Part shown: piece by piece, positions 19,156-26,464 of the stretch
Layout: each line of letters starts with the position of its first letter
Numbering within the stretch: position 1 is the first letter of the stretch
From: an uncultured Bacillota bacterium
GTDB taxonomy: Bacteria > Bacillota_I > Bacilli_A > Erysipelotrichales > Erysipelotrichaceae
Assembly: GCA_949299585.1 (NCBI GenBank)
Contig: CASGCC010000004.1
Location: 1 to 33,359 of the forward strand
DNA length: 33,359 bases
Direction: 5' to 3'
Position numbers and translations under genes: made by a program
The notes under the pieces: generated by a model
The model's database searches: none
What the model was told of the DNA's origin: nothing
Seen by the model: the letters and a program-made list of their open reading frames with translations, nothing else

Positions 19156-19721
19156 TGGATATCAAGGAATACGCTCATGAGCATCATGTACCGATCATGC
19201 TTGATGACGGCTTGGCATTTTTGTTAGACTATATCCAAACACATGGCATCAAAACGATATTAGAGATCGGAACAGCGATTGGCTATAGCAGCATGCAGAT
19301 GGCAAAGCTGGATAAGGATATCAGGATCGATACTTTAGAAATCGATCCGCAGATGTATGAGCTTGCCAAGGAAAATATCCAGAATAATCATTTAGCTGAT
19401 CAAATTACTTGTTATCTAACAGATGCTTTAGCATTTAGGACGGATAAACATTATGATCTGATCTTTGTTGATGCCGCTAAAGGAAAATATCGCCGTTATC
19501 TGGAATATTTTTTAGCAAACAGCGATCTGTTTATCTTTGATAACCTTGAATTTCATGGTATCGTTGATGATCCTTCGCTTACGCATAACCGCAATACCCG
19601 AAGCTTGGTAAAAAAAATTAGGACCTTTAGGGATGAGATCCTTAAAGATCCTAAATATCATTGTGAATATCACAAAGATATAGGTGATGGCATCTTAGTG
19701 CTTAAACCTATTCGATATTGA
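19155..19721 (+). CDS. trmR: SAM-dependent O-methyltransferase, TrmR (YrrM)-like
   Basis: A 188-residue Rossmann methyltransferase. The opening EYAHEHHVPIM and motif I ILEIGTAIGYSS match B. subtilis YrrM/TrmR, which methylates 5-hydroxyuridine at position 34 of tRNAs. FVDAAKGKYRRYLEYF (motif II region) and FDNLEFHG follow. The start at 19155 is a TAATG overlap with the UPF0210 stop; an ATG at 19092 in the same frame would add 21 residues that only reuse the upstream gene. Its 3' end overlaps the convergent ACT gene by 14 bases. The function is inferred from resemblance. Confidence 0.8.
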   Translation: MDIKEYAHEHHVPIMLDDGLAFLLDYIQTHGIKTILEIGTAIGYSSMQMAKLDKDIRIDTLEIDPQMYELAKENIQNNHLADQITCYLTDALAFRTDKHYDLIFVDAAKGKYRRYLEYFLANSDLFIFDNLEFHGIVDDPSLTHNRNTRSLVKKIRTFRDEILKDPKYHCEYHKDIGDGILVLKPIRY

Positions 19722-20139
19722 TCAAACTGGCGTTTATGACGCCTTTTATTTTTGTCAGTTCATCGATGATCAGCGTCAGTTCGGTTTGTAGCTTGCTGAT
19801 ATCAAGGCTAATATTGACATTAGCGATATTATTTACTGGCAAAGATTGGGATATCGTAAGGATATTGGCATTTGCTGCGCTTAAAGCATTTAAAACATTA
19901 GATAAATTTCCTTGTTCATTTTTTAAAGCTAAGGAAATGACGGCTTTTTGACTGGTATTCTTATTAGGCAGAAATACCAGATCTTTATATTTATAATAAG
20001 TAGAACGTGATATCGCAAACTTCTGACAAGCATCTTTAACATTATCATTAGGATGCTGATGAAGATATTCACGCACCTTTATTACGGTCAAAAAACATGG
20101 CGGTAATATCGAACTATGAACGATCAAAAATTCATTCAT
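19708..20139 (-). CDS. HTH-ACT regulator of threonine genes (UPF0735, PheB/ThrR-like)
   Basis: A 143-residue protein: an N-terminal helix-turn-helix-like part (residues about 18-52, with CQKFAISRSTYYKYKD) and a C-terminal ACT domain (about 65-143, with NEQGNLSNVLNALSAANANI). This layout matches the UPF0735 family, named PheB in Bacillus and, from memory, ThrR for a threonine-pathway regulator. Its start overlaps the thrB stop by four bases (ATGA), so it is the third gene of thrC-thrB-ACT. The inferred role is feedback repression of the divergent threonine promoters, with threonine or a related amino acid bound by the ACT domain. Confidence 0.75.
   Translation of the reverse strand: MNEFLIVHSSILPPCFLTVIKVREYLHQHPNDNVKDACQKFAISRSTYYKYKDLVFLPNKNTSQKAVISLALKNEQGNLSNVLNALSAANANILTISQSLPVNNIANVNISLDISKLQTELTLIIDELTKIKGVINASLINIE
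19729..19753 (+). terminator. Terminator after trmR
   Basis: GGCGT (19729-19733), loop TTATG, ACGCC (19739-19743), then TTTTATTTTT. The hairpin lies within the 3' end of the ACT gene on the other strand. Confidence 0.6.
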
Positions 20140-21002
20140 GATAGTTCGGTAATTTCGTATCCTTTATAATCGATGGAAAGATCGATGATACGGTATGCTC
20201 CATTGATTTCGTCTTGGATCGCTTCAGAAAAATTGGAAAAGTTAGATATTACCAAGCATGTAGGACCTGAGCCACTGATCATAAAGGCACAAGCTTGATT
20301 TTTGAAGCAGATATCTGCCATCTTATCATAATCTTTGATCAAGTTTTTGCGATATGGCTGATGCAGTAGATCGTGGCAGGCATCACGCAAAAGTTCACGA
20401 TCGCCTACTTTCAAAGCATAGGTTAGCGCAATAGTATGCGATATATTGTATACGGCATCATGCAGCGGTACCTCAGCTGGTAAAGCTTTGCGGCATTCTT
20501 TGGTATCCGTCTTATAGTCAGGAATGATAGCAGTAAAGTGAAAGTTTGGGCTGATATCCAATGATAAGGCCTGAACGCTGCGTTCACTAAAAGCGGTCGT
20601 AAGTCCACCGTAAATGCATGGTGCAATATTATCGGGATGGCCTTCGATATCTACGCATATCCTAAAAATTTCATCTTTGGAAAGAATGCTGCCATGCAGA
20701 TAATTTGCTGCTAAGGCTCCGGCGCTTATAAGGTTAGCGCTGCTGCCTAATCCTCGGGAAATGGGAATATGGCAGTCAAAGATCACATGGCATTTATCAA
20801 AAACATTCAAAGTTTTGCAGACGGTTTGATAGCCAATATAAAATAAATTGTTTTCGTTATTGAACTCTGGGGGACATCCTTCGATCCATAAATGATCGCT
20901 TTGTTCGACCTTAAAGGTATTGTAAAGGGAAAGTCCGACGCCTAAGGTATCAAAACCTGGGCCAAGATTAGCGCTGCTGGCGCATACTTTTATCTGGATC
21001 AT
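20136..21002 (-). CDS. thrB: Homoserine kinase
   Basis: A 288-residue GHMP kinase that phosphorylates L-homoserine with ATP, the step before threonine synthase. The ATP motif P80-xxx-GLGSSAN is clear, the N-terminal SSANLGPGFDTLG is diagnostic, and the C-terminal SGSGPTC motif is present. The start overlaps thrC by four bases (ATGA), with AAGGAGATG upstream. Normal length. Confidence 0.93.
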   Translation of the reverse strand: MIQIKVCASSANLGPGFDTLGVGLSLYNTFKVEQSDHLWIEGCPPEFNNENNLFYIGYQTVCKTLNVFDKCHVIFDCHIPISRGLGSSANLISAGALAANYLHGSILSKDEIFRICVDIEGHPDNIAPCIYGGLTTAFSERSVQALSLDISPNFHFTAIIPDYKTDTKECRKALPAEVPLHDAVYNISHTIALTYALKVGDRELLRDACHDLLHQPYRKNLIKDYDKMADICFKNQACAFMISGSGPTCLVISNFSNFSEAIQDEINGAYRIIDLSIDYKGYEITELS

Positions 21003-22471
21003 TTTATCATCTCCTTAATGTTGTTGATTATCACCTGAATACCTTGATCTTTGGTGATGATCTGATGATGGTTGAGTGGTAGATCTTGTAAATTCTTTAA
21101 GTTTGCGGGTATTGGTTCATCAGTTAAAGAAGCTAATGTCGTTATATAGTCAAAATCATCATCTTTCTTGCAAGAAGGATCAATGGCTTGACATACATCT
21201 TTGGCAAATTTGTAAGGACTAGCGGTAGCAACAGCGATCGTAGGTAATTTGCCAAATTCGCTGGCAGCCGCATATGCAATTGCGGAATGAGGATCTAAGC
21301 AATGCTTGGTTTTGATATACAGCTTTTTGATCTGCTGCTTCGTCATTTCATCATCAAAGGTATAAGCAACAAAGTTTTCTTGTAATTGCTCAAAGATCGT
21401 TGGATCGACCGTATAATGTCCTTGTTCCTTAAGCTGTTGCATATAATTTCTAACGCTTTGATCATCATGATTGCTTAAGATAAATAATAAGCGCTCGATA
21501 TTAGAAGATATCAGGATATCCATAGAAGGAGATATCGTCTTATGAAATTCGCGGCGGCTATCATAGTGCCCGGTTTTGATAAATTCAGCTAAGACGTCGT
21601 TGCGATTGGTAGCTACGATCAGCTTGTCAATAGGCAAGCCTAGCCTTTTAGCAATGAAAGCAGCTAGGATATTGCCAAAATTTCCACAAGGCACGCTGAA
21701 ATTGATCTTATCATTCATCTTGATGGTGCCGTTGTTGACTAGCTGTAAATAGCTCCAGACATAATAAATGATCTGTGGCACTAACCGTCCGATATTGATG
21801 CTGTTGGCACTGCTTAGTTGGATGCTTTGATTATCTTTCAGGCTTTGGTCGTCAAAACAGTCCTTTACGATTTTTTGACAGTCATCAAAATTTCCCTTAA
21901 CTTGAATGACGTTTGTGTTCTTGCCGGATGTGCTCAGCATTTGTTGGGCTTGGATATATGAGACATTTTCTTGGGGAAAGAAAACCGTGATATAAGTATT
22001 TTTCACATCTTTGAAACCTTCTAAGGCAGCCTTTCCGGTATCGCCGCTAGTTGCGCATAAGATATAGATCTGTTTGTTTATCTGCTGTTTTTGATAAGCG
22101 CATGTCAATAAATAAGGAAGGATGGTCAAGGCCATATCTTTAAAGGCACAGGTAGGTCCATGATATGTTTCTAAAACATGAAGTTGGCCATACTTTTGAA
22201 GCTTAACACATTCTGGAACATCAAATTTGCTATCATAAGCTTGCTGAACGCATGCTTCGATCATCTTTTCATCCAGATCATCAAAAAAATGTTTGATCAA
22301 GACCTTAGCTAATTGCTGGTAATTAAGCTTTTGCCAAGCTTCTAGATCAAATTTAGAGACTTCATCTAATTTGAAACAATATAAGCCTTGATCAGCTGCC
22401 ATCCCTTTGATGATAGCTAAAGAAGGAGATACTTTTTCGTTGATATTGCGGGTGTTATATAAATTTGGCAT
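20999..22471 (-). CDS. thrC: Threonine synthase
   Basis: A 490-residue PLP enzyme converting O-phosphohomoserine to threonine. The PLP lysine is K111 in CAFKDMAL; ATSGDTGKAALEGF binds the cofactor phosphate; and NSINIGRLVPQIIYY is typical. This is the longer class resembling the E. coli/yeast form, rather than the shorter Bacillus ThrC of about 350 residues. It is the first gene of the minus-strand operon, with AAGGAG before the ATG and a promoter in the 83-base gap to hom. Confidence 0.93.
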   Translation of the reverse strand: MPNLYNTRNINEKVSPSLAIIKGMAADQGLYCFKLDEVSKFDLEAWQKLNYQQLAKVLIKHFFDDLDEKMIEACVQQAYDSKFDVPECVKLQKYGQLHVLETYHGPTCAFKDMALTILPYLLTCAYQKQQINKQIYILCATSGDTGKAALEGFKDVKNTYITVFFPQENVSYIQAQQMLSTSGKNTNVIQVKGNFDDCQKIVKDCFDDQSLKDNQSIQLSSANSINIGRLVPQIIYYVWSYLQLVNNGTIKMNDKINFSVPCGNFGNILAAFIAKRLGLPIDKLIVATNRNDVLAEFIKTGHYDSRREFHKTISPSMDILISSNIERLLFILSNHDDQSVRNYMQQLKEQGHYTVDPTIFEQLQENFVAYTFDDEMTKQQIKKLYIKTKHCLDPHSAIAYAAASEFGKLPTIAVATASPYKFAKDVCQAIDPSCKKDDDFDYITTLASLTDEPIPANLKNLQDLPLNHHQIITKDQGIQVIINNIKEMIK

Positions 22472-22481
22472 GATAAACTCC

Positions 22482-22510
22482 TTGTTTTATGTGCATATTA
22501 ATGATACTAT
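22482..22510 (+). promoter_or_regulatory. Promoter of hom-lysC-asd
   Basis: TTGTTT (22482-22487), a 17-base spacer and TACTAT (22505-22510). Its -10 box overlaps the -10 box of the divergent thrC promoter by two bases, so the polymerases would compete. Confidence 0.5.
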
Positions 22511-22529
22511 GTTTGCTATAGGAATACAA
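22501..22529 (-). promoter_or_regulatory. Promoter of thrC-thrB-ACT
   Basis: Read on minus: TTGTAT (22524-22529), a 17-base spacer and TATCAT (22501-22506). An alternative upstream pair TTGATA/TATAGC with 16 bases is weaker. Confidence 0.5.
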
Positions 22530-22536
22530 GTGTATT
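22523..22536. promoter_or_regulatory. Candidate operator between hom and thrC
   Basis: AATACA-AG-TGTATT is a perfect 6+6 inverted repeat around two bases. It covers the -35 box of the thrC promoter and lies just after the hom -10 box, so one bound regulator could block both. The HTH-ACT gene in the same operon is the natural candidate. Inference only. Confidence 0.4.
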
Positions 22537-22554
22537 TATCAAGAGGACACAACT

Positions 22555-23634
22555 ATGAAAATTGGAATATTAGGATTTGGCGTCGTAGGACAAGGCGTCT
22601 ATGAATTGTTAAAGGATAAGCATGATATCGTTAAGATATTAGCTTTGCAGCATGAAGCAAACGACATTTTTTGCGATGATATCACAGCTGTTTTGCAGGC
22701 TGATATCGATTGTATGATCGAATGCTTGCCCGATATAGAGATTGCATATGATTATCTAGCAGCAGCTTTGAAAAAAGGCATCAGGGTCATTACCAGCAAT
22801 AAGGCTATCATGGCAAGGCACTATGAAGCGCTGCTAAGCTTAGCTTTAGAACATGATACTACGATTTCTTTTGAAGCCAGCGTAGCAGGAGGCATTCCGA
22901 TCATGCATCGCTTGCAGGATATGAAAGAATATGATCAGATCCAGATGGTCGAAGGTATCTTGAATGGCACGACGAATTATATCTTAGATAGCATCTTCAC
23001 TAAGAACATCACTTATCAGCAAGCTTTGAAACAAGCACAAGAATTAGGGTATGCCGAAAAAGATCCTGCTAGCGATATCTGTGGCCGTGATGTTGGCTAT
23101 AAAGCTGCTTTGCTGTATAACACGATATTTGATGCTAATGTCGCATTGAAAGACATTTTTATAAAAGGTATCGAATATCTCGATGAAGAAGCCTTGGCAT
23201 TTGCCAATAGGCAAGATAAGGTCATTCGGTTAATTGGCCATATCGATCAAAACAACGTATTTGTTTTGCCATTTTTTATTGGCAAGGACCATATCTTGGC
23301 AAATATCAAAGAGAATAATAATTGTGTGATGATCAGATCACAAAATATGGCTAGCGCATATGATATCGGTCAAGGAGCAGGACGTTTTCCTACGGCAAGT
23401 GCGATATGCTTGGATGTAAGTAGACCTTTGCGCAATCGGATCATCAATAAAGCGACGATCAAAAATGAACAAAGATATCAGTTTTATTTAAGCAAGCAAA
23501 TGATCGATCAACAATTTATCGCTGAATATGCAGGCCAAGGCTGCATTACTCAACTGTTAAGCATCGATGAATTAGCGCAGATCGTAAAAGATCAGCAAGT
23601 CTTTATAGGAGGTATATATGATCAAAGTTGCTAA
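22555..23634 (+). CDS. hom: Homoserine dehydrogenase, short form
   Basis: A 359-residue NAD(P)-dependent enzyme making L-homoserine from aspartate semialdehyde. The Rossmann motif GFGVVGQG is at 7-14; TSNKAIMARH and ASVAGGIPIMHRLQD follow, then EGILNGTTNYIL and the DPASDICGRDVGYKAAL segment with the catalytic-type lysine. It lacks the C-terminal ACT domain of the 430-residue Bacillus form, so feedback control may rest elsewhere. It has AAGAGGA before the ATG, and its end overlaps lysC by 17 bases. Confidence 0.93.
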   Translation: MKIGILGFGVVGQGVYELLKDKHDIVKILALQHEANDIFCDDITAVLQADIDCMIECLPDIEIAYDYLAAALKKGIRVITSNKAIMARHYEALLSLALEHDTTISFEASVAGGIPIMHRLQDMKEYDQIQMVEGILNGTTNYILDSIFTKNITYQQALKQAQELGYAEKDPASDICGRDVGYKAALLYNTIFDANVALKDIFIKGIEYLDEEALAFANRQDKVIRLIGHIDQNNVFVLPFFIGKDHILANIKENNNCVMIRSQNMASAYDIGQGAGRFPTASAICLDVSRPLRNRIINKATIKNEQRYQFYLSKQMIDQQFIAEYAGQGCITQLLSIDELAQIVKDQQVFIGGIYDQSC

Positions 23635-24954
23635 ATTTGGCGGTTCTAGCGTGGCGGATGCCACCCAATTTGCCAAGGTAAGAAATATCATCCAAGCTGA
23701 TCCTGATCGGCGTTTTATCGTGGTGAGCGCATGCGGTAAAAGTCATGATGAAGATCATAAGGTTACCGATCTGTTATATCTTTGCCATGCTCATCTAAAA
23801 TATGGCGTTTCATATGAATCGCTGATGAAAATGGTCGAAGAAAAATATCGTAAGATCCATCAGCAGCTGCAGATAAGGCTGGATATCGATAAGGAATTTG
23901 CCAGCATTCGTAAGCTGATGGATAAAAATATCGACCTTGATTATTTGGTATCACGCGGGGAATACCTTTGTGCGAAGATGATGGCAGACTATCTGGATGC
24001 TGAATTTATTGATGCCAAGGATCTTTTAGCGTTCGACTATGATGGCAGCTTAAATTATGCTAAGATCAAAGCTAAGTTAGATGAGCATTTAGGAAAAGGC
24101 AAAAGACTAGTGATTCCCGGCTTTTATGGCAGCTTTCCCAATGGCAAGATCCATTTGATGTCGCGAGGTGGCAGCGATGTGACCGGTGCGATCATCGCTA
24201 ACGTGCTCGATGCGGACATTTACGAGAATTTTACCGATGTTCCCGGCATCATGATCGCCGATCCGCGTATCGTGAAAGATCCTAAAGTCATCAAGCGCAT
24301 TACCTATAATGAATTGCGAGAAATGAGCTATATGGGTGCGAACGTTTTGCATGAAGAGGCAATATTTCCGGTCAAAAGCAAGCATATTCCGATCCATATC
24401 TTGAATACCAATGATCCTAAGGCTAGCGGTACCTTGATCGTTGAAAATTGTGATGAACTAGATAAAAATGATGATCCATATCCGATAACCGGTATAACCG
24501 GCCGACAAAACTTTAGCGTTATCAACATCGTCAAAAGCCATAGTTCCAATGAAGTAGGGGTCTTGGCCAAAGCACTGAGCATCGTTAGCAGGTATAATGT
24601 CAGCGTAGAGTCGGCGTAGAGTCGGTACCTAGCGGCATAGATTCTTTTTCGATCGTCATGGATACCAGCAAGGTTGAACATTGTATCTATGAAATGATGG
24701 TAGAATTAAAGAATGAATTAGCCTTGGATAGCGTTAGTCTTTCGGAAAATATTTCCATGGTCGCTGTTGTTGGCCGTAAGATGAAAGACGCTAAAGGCTT
24801 TTCGGGAAAACTGTTTGCGCAATTAGGCAGCAATGATATCAATATTCGTTTGATCAGCCAAACAGCTGATGAGATCAATATCATCGTTGGGGTCATGAAT
24901 AAAGATTTTGCCAAAACGATCAATTGTATTTATGAAAAATTTATTGGAGCGTGA
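23618..24954 (+). pseudogene. lysC: Aspartokinase gene split by an 11-bp tandem duplication
   Basis: This encodes aspartate kinase, the first step to lysine, threonine and methionine. Part one (23618-24619, 333 residues) has KFGGSSVADATQF and SRGGSDVTGA and the whole kinase domain, then stops at TAG 24617-24619 inside the first ACT domain. The second part (about 24626-24954) continues the same protein in another frame (VPSGIDSF, then the second ACT domain). A perfect tandem repeat of CGTAGAGTCGG (24604-24614, 24615-24625) explains it: removing one copy restores about 441 residues, normal for the family. The gene may be inactive, produce an unregulated kinase, revert by slippage, or be a sequencing artefact. 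Confidence 0.9.
24604..24625. repeat. Perfect 11-bp tandem duplication in lysC
   Basis: Two back-to-back copies of CGTAGAGTCGG. Eleven is not a multiple of three, so the reading frame shifts and the stop at 24617-24619 is met at once. Confidence 0.95.
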
Positions 24955-24959
24955 AAAAG

Positions 24960-25937
24960 ATGAAAATAGGAATATTAGGAGCTAGCGGTGCGGTTGGCAG
25001 ACAAATGATCCAATGCTTGGAAGAAAGACAGTTACCGATAGAAGAAATAAGATTTTTTGGCTTTGGCAGCGTAGGCCAAGAAATTACCTTCAAAGATCGA
25101 CGATATAAGATCGAAAAACCATATTTTAACGGTTTAGATGTCATCTTAGGAGCAGTGTCTAGCGATATTGCCAAAGGATACATAGCTGATATCAAAGCAT
25201 CAGGAGCCTTATTTATTGATAATAGCTCAGCTTTTCGCCATGATGCAGAAGTACCTCTGGTCGTCCCTCAGATAAATAAAGAAGATATCGTAAATCATCA
25301 TGGCATCATAGCTAATCCTAATTGCTCAACGATCATCACTTTGATGGCGGTGCAAGCAATCAATAAGTTAAGTCCGGTAACTGCCATCAATGCCGTTACC
25401 TATCAAGCGGTTAGCGGAGCCGGGGCCAAGGGCTTAGAAGAGCTGAATGCTGAGACCGTTGCTTTTTGCCAAGATGGGAAGGTCGAACGCAAGTCTGATG
25501 TCTTCAACTATCCGATCTTATTTAACTGCATCCCGCAAATTGGTGATATTGGCAGCGATGGCTACACCAGCGAAGAATTAAAAATGGAAAAAGAAGCTCG
25601 CAAGATCATGCATATCGCTGATCTAAAGGTTAATTGTACCTGCGTGCGGGTACCGGTTGCTAGGTCGCATAGCATTGCCGTTACGGTCTATACCAAAGAT
25701 CGTTTAGAGCTAGCACAAGTTGAATTAGCCTTTTCCAATAGCGAAGGTTTGATATATTTAAAGAATGAGCTGCCTATGCCTTTGGTAGCAAGCAATCGTG
25801 ATGAAGTGTTCGTTGGCCGCTTACGTAAAGATCGGATCTTTGCAAATGGCATCACGTTCTTTGTTTGCGGTGATCAAATTCGTAAAGGTGCAGCCACAAA
25901 TGCCATAGAAATATTGGAGCATTTTTTAAAGTTGTGA
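24960..25937 (+). CDS. asd: Aspartate-semialdehyde dehydrogenase
   Basis: A 325-residue NADP enzyme reducing aspartyl phosphate to aspartate semialdehyde. GASGAVGRQ (7-15) binds cofactor, C122 in ANPNCST is the nucleophile, and the CVRVPVARSHS segment carries the conserved substrate-binding residues and the catalytic-type histidine. The ATG at 24960 has GGAG ten bases upstream; a GTG at 24951 in frame has it too close. It follows lysC by five bases, so lysC disruption could affect its translation. Confidence 0.92.
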   Translation: MKIGILGASGAVGRQMIQCLEERQLPIEEIRFFGFGSVGQEITFKDRRYKIEKPYFNGLDVILGAVSSDIAKGYIADIKASGALFIDNSSAFRHDAEVPLVVPQINKEDIVNHHGIIANPNCSTIITLMAVQAINKLSPVTAINAVTYQAVSGAGAKGLEELNAETVAFCQDGKVERKSDVFNYPILFNCIPQIGDIGSDGYTSEELKMEKEARKIMHIADLKVNCTCVRVPVARSHSIAVTVYTKDRLELAQVELAFSNSEGLIYLKNELPMPLVASNRDEVFVGRLRKDRIFANGITFFVCGDQIRKGAATNAIEILEHFLKL

Positions 25938-25943
25938 TACAAT
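25914..25943 (+). promoter_or_regulatory. Candidate promoter for the small anchored protein
   Basis: TTGGAG (25914-25919), 18 bases, TACAAT (25938-25943). It overlaps the end of asd. The spacer is one base longer than optimal. Confidence 0.4.
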
Positions 25944-25969
25944 AAATAAATAGAAAAAGAGGTATCCGT

Positions 25970-26464
25970 ATGAAAAAAAGAGGAATCGTTTTATCGGTAT
26001 TGGCATTAGGCGGCGCCGTTGCTTATATGGTCGCAAAGAATCTTAAAAAACAAAAAGAATACGAAGAAGTAACATATGTCAGCATCCAAGATGATGATGA
26101 CGATGATGAAGAAGATATATTTGATGAAAAGATCAATGAACTGCATGAGATATATCCATATCTATCCAAAAAATTTATTGATGGCATTTATAAAGAACAA
26201 GCTAATTTTAACAATAAATATCATGGGAAGATCAAATTAGAACATATCATCGTCTTTGACGATGAAAATGATGCAAATATCTTCTTAGATGTTTGCGATG
26301 ATAACGACTATGAAGTGGAGAAGGATGGCTTGAAAGTTCAGGTCAATAGTTATTTTGAAAATGAAAATGGCCGGATCATGAGTGACATCCTTAGCGTAGC
26401 CAATCAGGCAAATAGCTTGATGGGCGCATATCTTGGCTATCGTTTAGAGGTTGAAAAGTTATAG
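25970..26464 (+). CDS. Membrane-anchored acidic protein of unknown function
   Basis: A 164-residue protein with a basic start, one hydrophobic segment (about 5-21), a KNLKKQKEYEE linker and a run of acidic residues (DDDDDDEED, about 41-49), then a mixed soluble domain of about 110 residues. The topology suggests a single N-terminal anchor or uncleaved signal. I recognise no family. AGAGGTA precedes the ATG. Its stop lies inside its own terminator loop. Confidence 0.7.
   Translation: MKKRGIVLSVLALGGAVAYMVAKNLKKQKEYEEVTYVSIQDDDDDDEEDIFDEKINELHEIYPYLSKKFIDGIYKEQANFNNKYHGKIKLEHIIVFDDENDANIFLDVCDDNDYEVEKDGLKVQVNSYFENENGRIMSDILSVANQANSLMGAYLGYRLEVEKL

Follow-up and report, generated by a model that had tools for sequence, protein, structure and literature searches.

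A perfect 11-bp tandem duplication in lysC of an uncultured Erysipelotrichaceae bacterium: recent frameshift mutation or assembly error

Does the interrupted aspartokinase gene of this uncultured Bacillota bacterium (Erysipelotrichaceae) record a mutation of the living organism, a switch, a shortened but active enzyme, or a fault of assembly? The gene, lysC, lies in a stretch of 33,359 nucleotides, hereafter the window (GenBank assembly GCA_949299585.1, contig CASGCC010000004.1, positions 1 to 33,359), in which a sequence-only reading had reported a perfect 11-bp tandem duplication. We confirm the duplication and find that the event is of an ordinary kind, either a recent short-duplication frameshift or an assembly error. 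Literature searches retrieved no directly relevant paper.

The duplication and the interrupted lysC frame

The 11-mer CGTAGAGTCGG is present in two adjacent and perfect copies at 24604-24625 (Table 1), and the identical run extends one base further left, from 24603. It occurs nowhere else in the window, nor in any of 100 shuffles, and is hence unlikely to have arisen as a chance match. The duplication shifts the reading frame that opens at the ATG at 23618, and translation would end after 333 codons at a TAG within the second copy. The kinase domain is encoded in full upstream of this stop, as residues 1-263 match PF00696 from end to end (profile positions 1-234 of 234, E = 6e-40). The best match among solved structures, the 446-residue 3tvi_A, spans residues 2-331 of the truncated product (E = 6e-98) and residues 4-330 of the 3tvi chain, which places the cut within ACT1, the first of the ACT domains. 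Downstream, a different frame is open up to 24954 and encodes the C-terminus of a normal aspartokinase, ACT_9 domain included, and the open reading frame 24658-24954 holds the ACT domain; the stop at 24617-24619 thus keeps the C-terminal ACT domains out of the frame of the kinase domain. The earlier description of a frameshifted gene that retains its kinase domain and loses most of its ACT region is therefore accurate.

The gene belongs to a threonine cluster in which hom, lysC and asd follow one another, an order shared by most of 29 related loci that were compared. The other pathway genes in the lineage of the window (hom, asd, thrB, thrC) are undamaged and remain under constraint; the pathway is thus not decaying elsewhere in that lineage, which weighs against a real null mutation of lysC. 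Within the genus, hom diverges far faster than its neighbours: its identity to the congener G005 is 57%, while lysC reaches 85% and thrB 79%.

Table 1. Features of the lysC locus and the surrounding threonine cluster (window coordinates)
Feature	Position	Strand	Remark
Small ACT-domain protein	19708..20139	-	Probably regulatory; conserved in cluster
thrB-like GHMP kinase (homoserine kinase)	20136..21002	-	
thrC, threonine synthase	20999..22471	-	
hom, homoserine dehydrogenase	22555..23634	+	Overlaps lysC start
lysC, aspartokinase, truncated frame (333 aa)	23618..24619	+	Full amino-acid-kinase domain and start of ACT1
CGTAGAGTCGG copy 1	24604..24614	+	
CGTAGAGTCGG copy 2	24615..24625	+	Contains in-frame TAG 24617-24619
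Rest of lysC, shifted frame, ACT_9 domain	24620..24954	+	First ATG at 24658
asd, aspartate-semialdehyde dehydrogenase	24960..25937	+	Directly after lysC stop; listed ORF starts at GTG 24951

Single-copy relatives and the age of the event

The closest comparison is provided by the sister species G003, an uncultured Erysipelotrichaceae MAG whose locus (L031) shares 94% DNA identity with the window over 9 kb. Its lysC is open over 444 codons and contains the 11-mer once, at one substitution from CGTAGAGTCGG; the 11-bp duplication is the sole gap in the 9-kb alignment. A second congener, G005 (L032), likewise has one copy and an open lysC frame (444-451 codons in the two congeners). Across 65 related loci, none is stopped at the duplication site and 64 are full-length to the natural stop at about 440 codons, the 65th (L094) running off its contig. 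Identity to G003 is itself a mosaic over 22400-26200, at about 99% in 23000-23700 and 25300-25700 but only 82-92% within portions of hom and lysC, a pattern of sequence identity that suggests recombination.

Codon differences between the window and G003 date the event. In the N-terminal part of lysC, 56 of them are synonymous and 9 non-synonymous, and in the cut-off C-terminal part the counts are 25 and 0; on the window's own branch, with G005 as outgroup, the corresponding ratios are 28:3 and 9:0. The usual signs of pseudogene decay are thus absent from lysC, as the cut-off part has accumulated neither a replacement nor a further indel. Judged from these counts, the ACT region is fully constrained up to the duplication event. 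Since the cut-off part holds 25 synonymous differences and no non-synonymous one, the duplication is either very recent or an assembly error, in agreement with the sequence-only reading, which had seen no other damage in the frame.

Recent mutation or assembly error

We consider it an even chance that the duplication is a real and very recent null mutation of lysC. A single 11-bp tandem duplication would have arisen in the strain's only lysC, through a replication slip or a template switch at a 1-bp microhomology, and would have shifted the frame into a stop midway through the first ACT domain. Most likely the product would misfold or fail to form the ACT-based dimer, leaving a null or nearly null allele, and the strain would import threonine from its surroundings. 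We infer the loss of enzyme activity and the strain's tolerance of it, as well as the reality of the duplication in the living strain. Short tandem duplications are ordinary spontaneous null mutations in bacteria. No hairpin that might have provoked this one is found at the site (no notable fold, z = +1.4), and Rfam yields no match in the window to a T-box or other RNA element.

No second aspartokinase gene, which the sequence-only reading had proposed to look for, was found in the draft genome, whose only two AA_kinase genes are lysC and a 251-codon frame resembling UMP kinase. A search of the same genome for DHDPS (dapA) and DapB (dapB) also returned nothing, and the lysine branch appears to be absent. 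Given this result and the location of the gene in the threonine cluster, lysC most likely serves threonine and not lysine. The proposed role at the entry step to lysine, threonine and methionine consequently most likely stands for threonine, through the cluster, and appears to fall away for the lysine branch.

Two congeners, G001 (99% complete) and G004, are without lysC, asd and thrC at the conserved cluster; the site lies mid-contig in both, where hom, thrB and the flanking genes to either side are retained, and the three missing genes were not found by search elsewhere in either genome. Loss of the pathway is therefore tolerated in the genus, which would make a null lysC plausible where threonine is available to the strain. 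The retained genes in G001 (L167, contig C21, 5145-7649) and G004 (L168, contig C219, 3483-5975) are hom, thrB and that of the ACT protein, which leaves homoserine dehydrogenase and homoserine kinase without their upstream or downstream enzymes. G002 was considered as a further case of pathway loss and rejected: its thrC sits at a contig end, so the missing hom, lysC and asd may be merely unassembled.

It is also quite possible, although we place it short of an even chance, that the duplication is an assembly artefact and that the organism itself carries the 11-mer once and makes a normal enzyme. Such a duplication could be produced if two contig ends sharing about 12 bases were joined without collapse of their overlap, or by an out-of-register merger of two strain variants. 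This explanation is consistent with the state of the assembly, a fragmented draft of 205 contigs that is 89% complete and the only genome representing its species, and with a gene that is fully constrained on both sides of the duplication, bears no other damage and contains the only indel in 9 kb. A systematic join error should, however, leave a crop of similar duplications, and no other perfect, non-triplet duplication of at least 11 bases was detected in 403 kb of the same genome, which supports a real mutation. The survey covered sampled stretches amounting to about a quarter of the genome; when 400 kb of the sister species is included, the lysC repeat remains the sole perfect tandem duplication outside low-complexity sequence with a non-triplet unit of at least 11 bases, and the one other tandem unit of at least 11 bases across the two samples is a 12-mer. 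It also weighs against an artefact that short tandem duplications are a natural kind of mutation.

The frequency of split genes was compared with the sister assembly over about 111 kb of aligned coding sequence, with about 120 genes in each direction. Clearly split genes number two in the genome of the window (lysC and the gene of an M32-type peptidase) against zero in the sister assembly. This difference lacks significance and is as compatible with natural pseudogenes as with a slightly poorer assembly. The peptidase (L126, 2329-3815 on contig C21) has about 496 codons and a HEIGH motif, resembles carboxypeptidase Taq and is split across two frames by a one-base difference from G003 in a poly-A run.

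Other readings and comparison with known systems

The sequence-only reading had left open whether the product is dead or free of feedback control. Of the two, a dead product is the more likely, and it is unlikely that the 333-residue protein is an active, feedback-free aspartokinase. The complete kinase domain and the removal of most of the effector-binding ACT region are what such an enzyme would require, but the cut within ACT1 seen in the 3tvi match leaves half a domain, an end that would usually be unstable.

The proposal of a reversible, phase-variable switch by slippage between the copies finds no support among the relatives, and we give it very little weight. Two perfect adjoining copies could in principle contract to one; such low-rate reversion is nevertheless common to every short tandem duplication and hence is no evidence for a switch. 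The repeat comprises two copies only, the size of any duplication mutation, with no recurrent array, and neither a repeat nor a frameshift occurs at the site in the 65 related loci or in G003 and G005, so that a tract kept in relatives with varying copy number is not observed. For the same gene to be a contingency locus in amino-acid synthesis, with a reversible, slippage-driven threonine auxotrophy, a real duplication would have to be present at intermediate frequency in the population, which is very improbable. Expression in two pieces or by recoding, through reinitiation at the ATG at 24658, a -1 frameshift or an 11-base hop, is the least credible reading of all, since, despite the ACT domain in the downstream open reading frame, no strong start signal or ribosome-binding site is seen by eye ahead of 24658, no slippery heptamer precedes the stop, no notable fold is present, and the arrangement is absent from relatives.

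By itself, the event is of little consequence. If the duplication is real, it would capture threonine synthesis at the onset of its loss in a single lineage, within a genus where other species no longer carry lysC, asd and thrC in the same conserved cluster. If it is an artefact, it illustrates how one duplicated stretch in a draft assembly can give a prototroph the appearance of an auxotroph.

The locus can be set against three known systems. With the LysC class of aspartokinases represented by 3tvi (446 residues) and E. coli AKIII (2j0w), it shares (i) the kinase domain, (ii) the first part of ACT1 and (iii) ACT_9, the last of these downstream in another frame; it differs from that class in that the 11-bp duplication breaks the frame after 333 codons. 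Like phase-variable contingency loci with coding repeats, lysC carries a tandem repeat within its coding sequence whose unit is not divisible by three, but it has two copies only, none in relatives and no variation seen, and it is a metabolic gene. The third comparison is with short tandem-duplication frameshift mutations in bacteria, with which it has in common two perfect copies, a broken frame, the lack of other damage and a single copy in all relatives; the lysC duplication, if real, shows no difference from this class.
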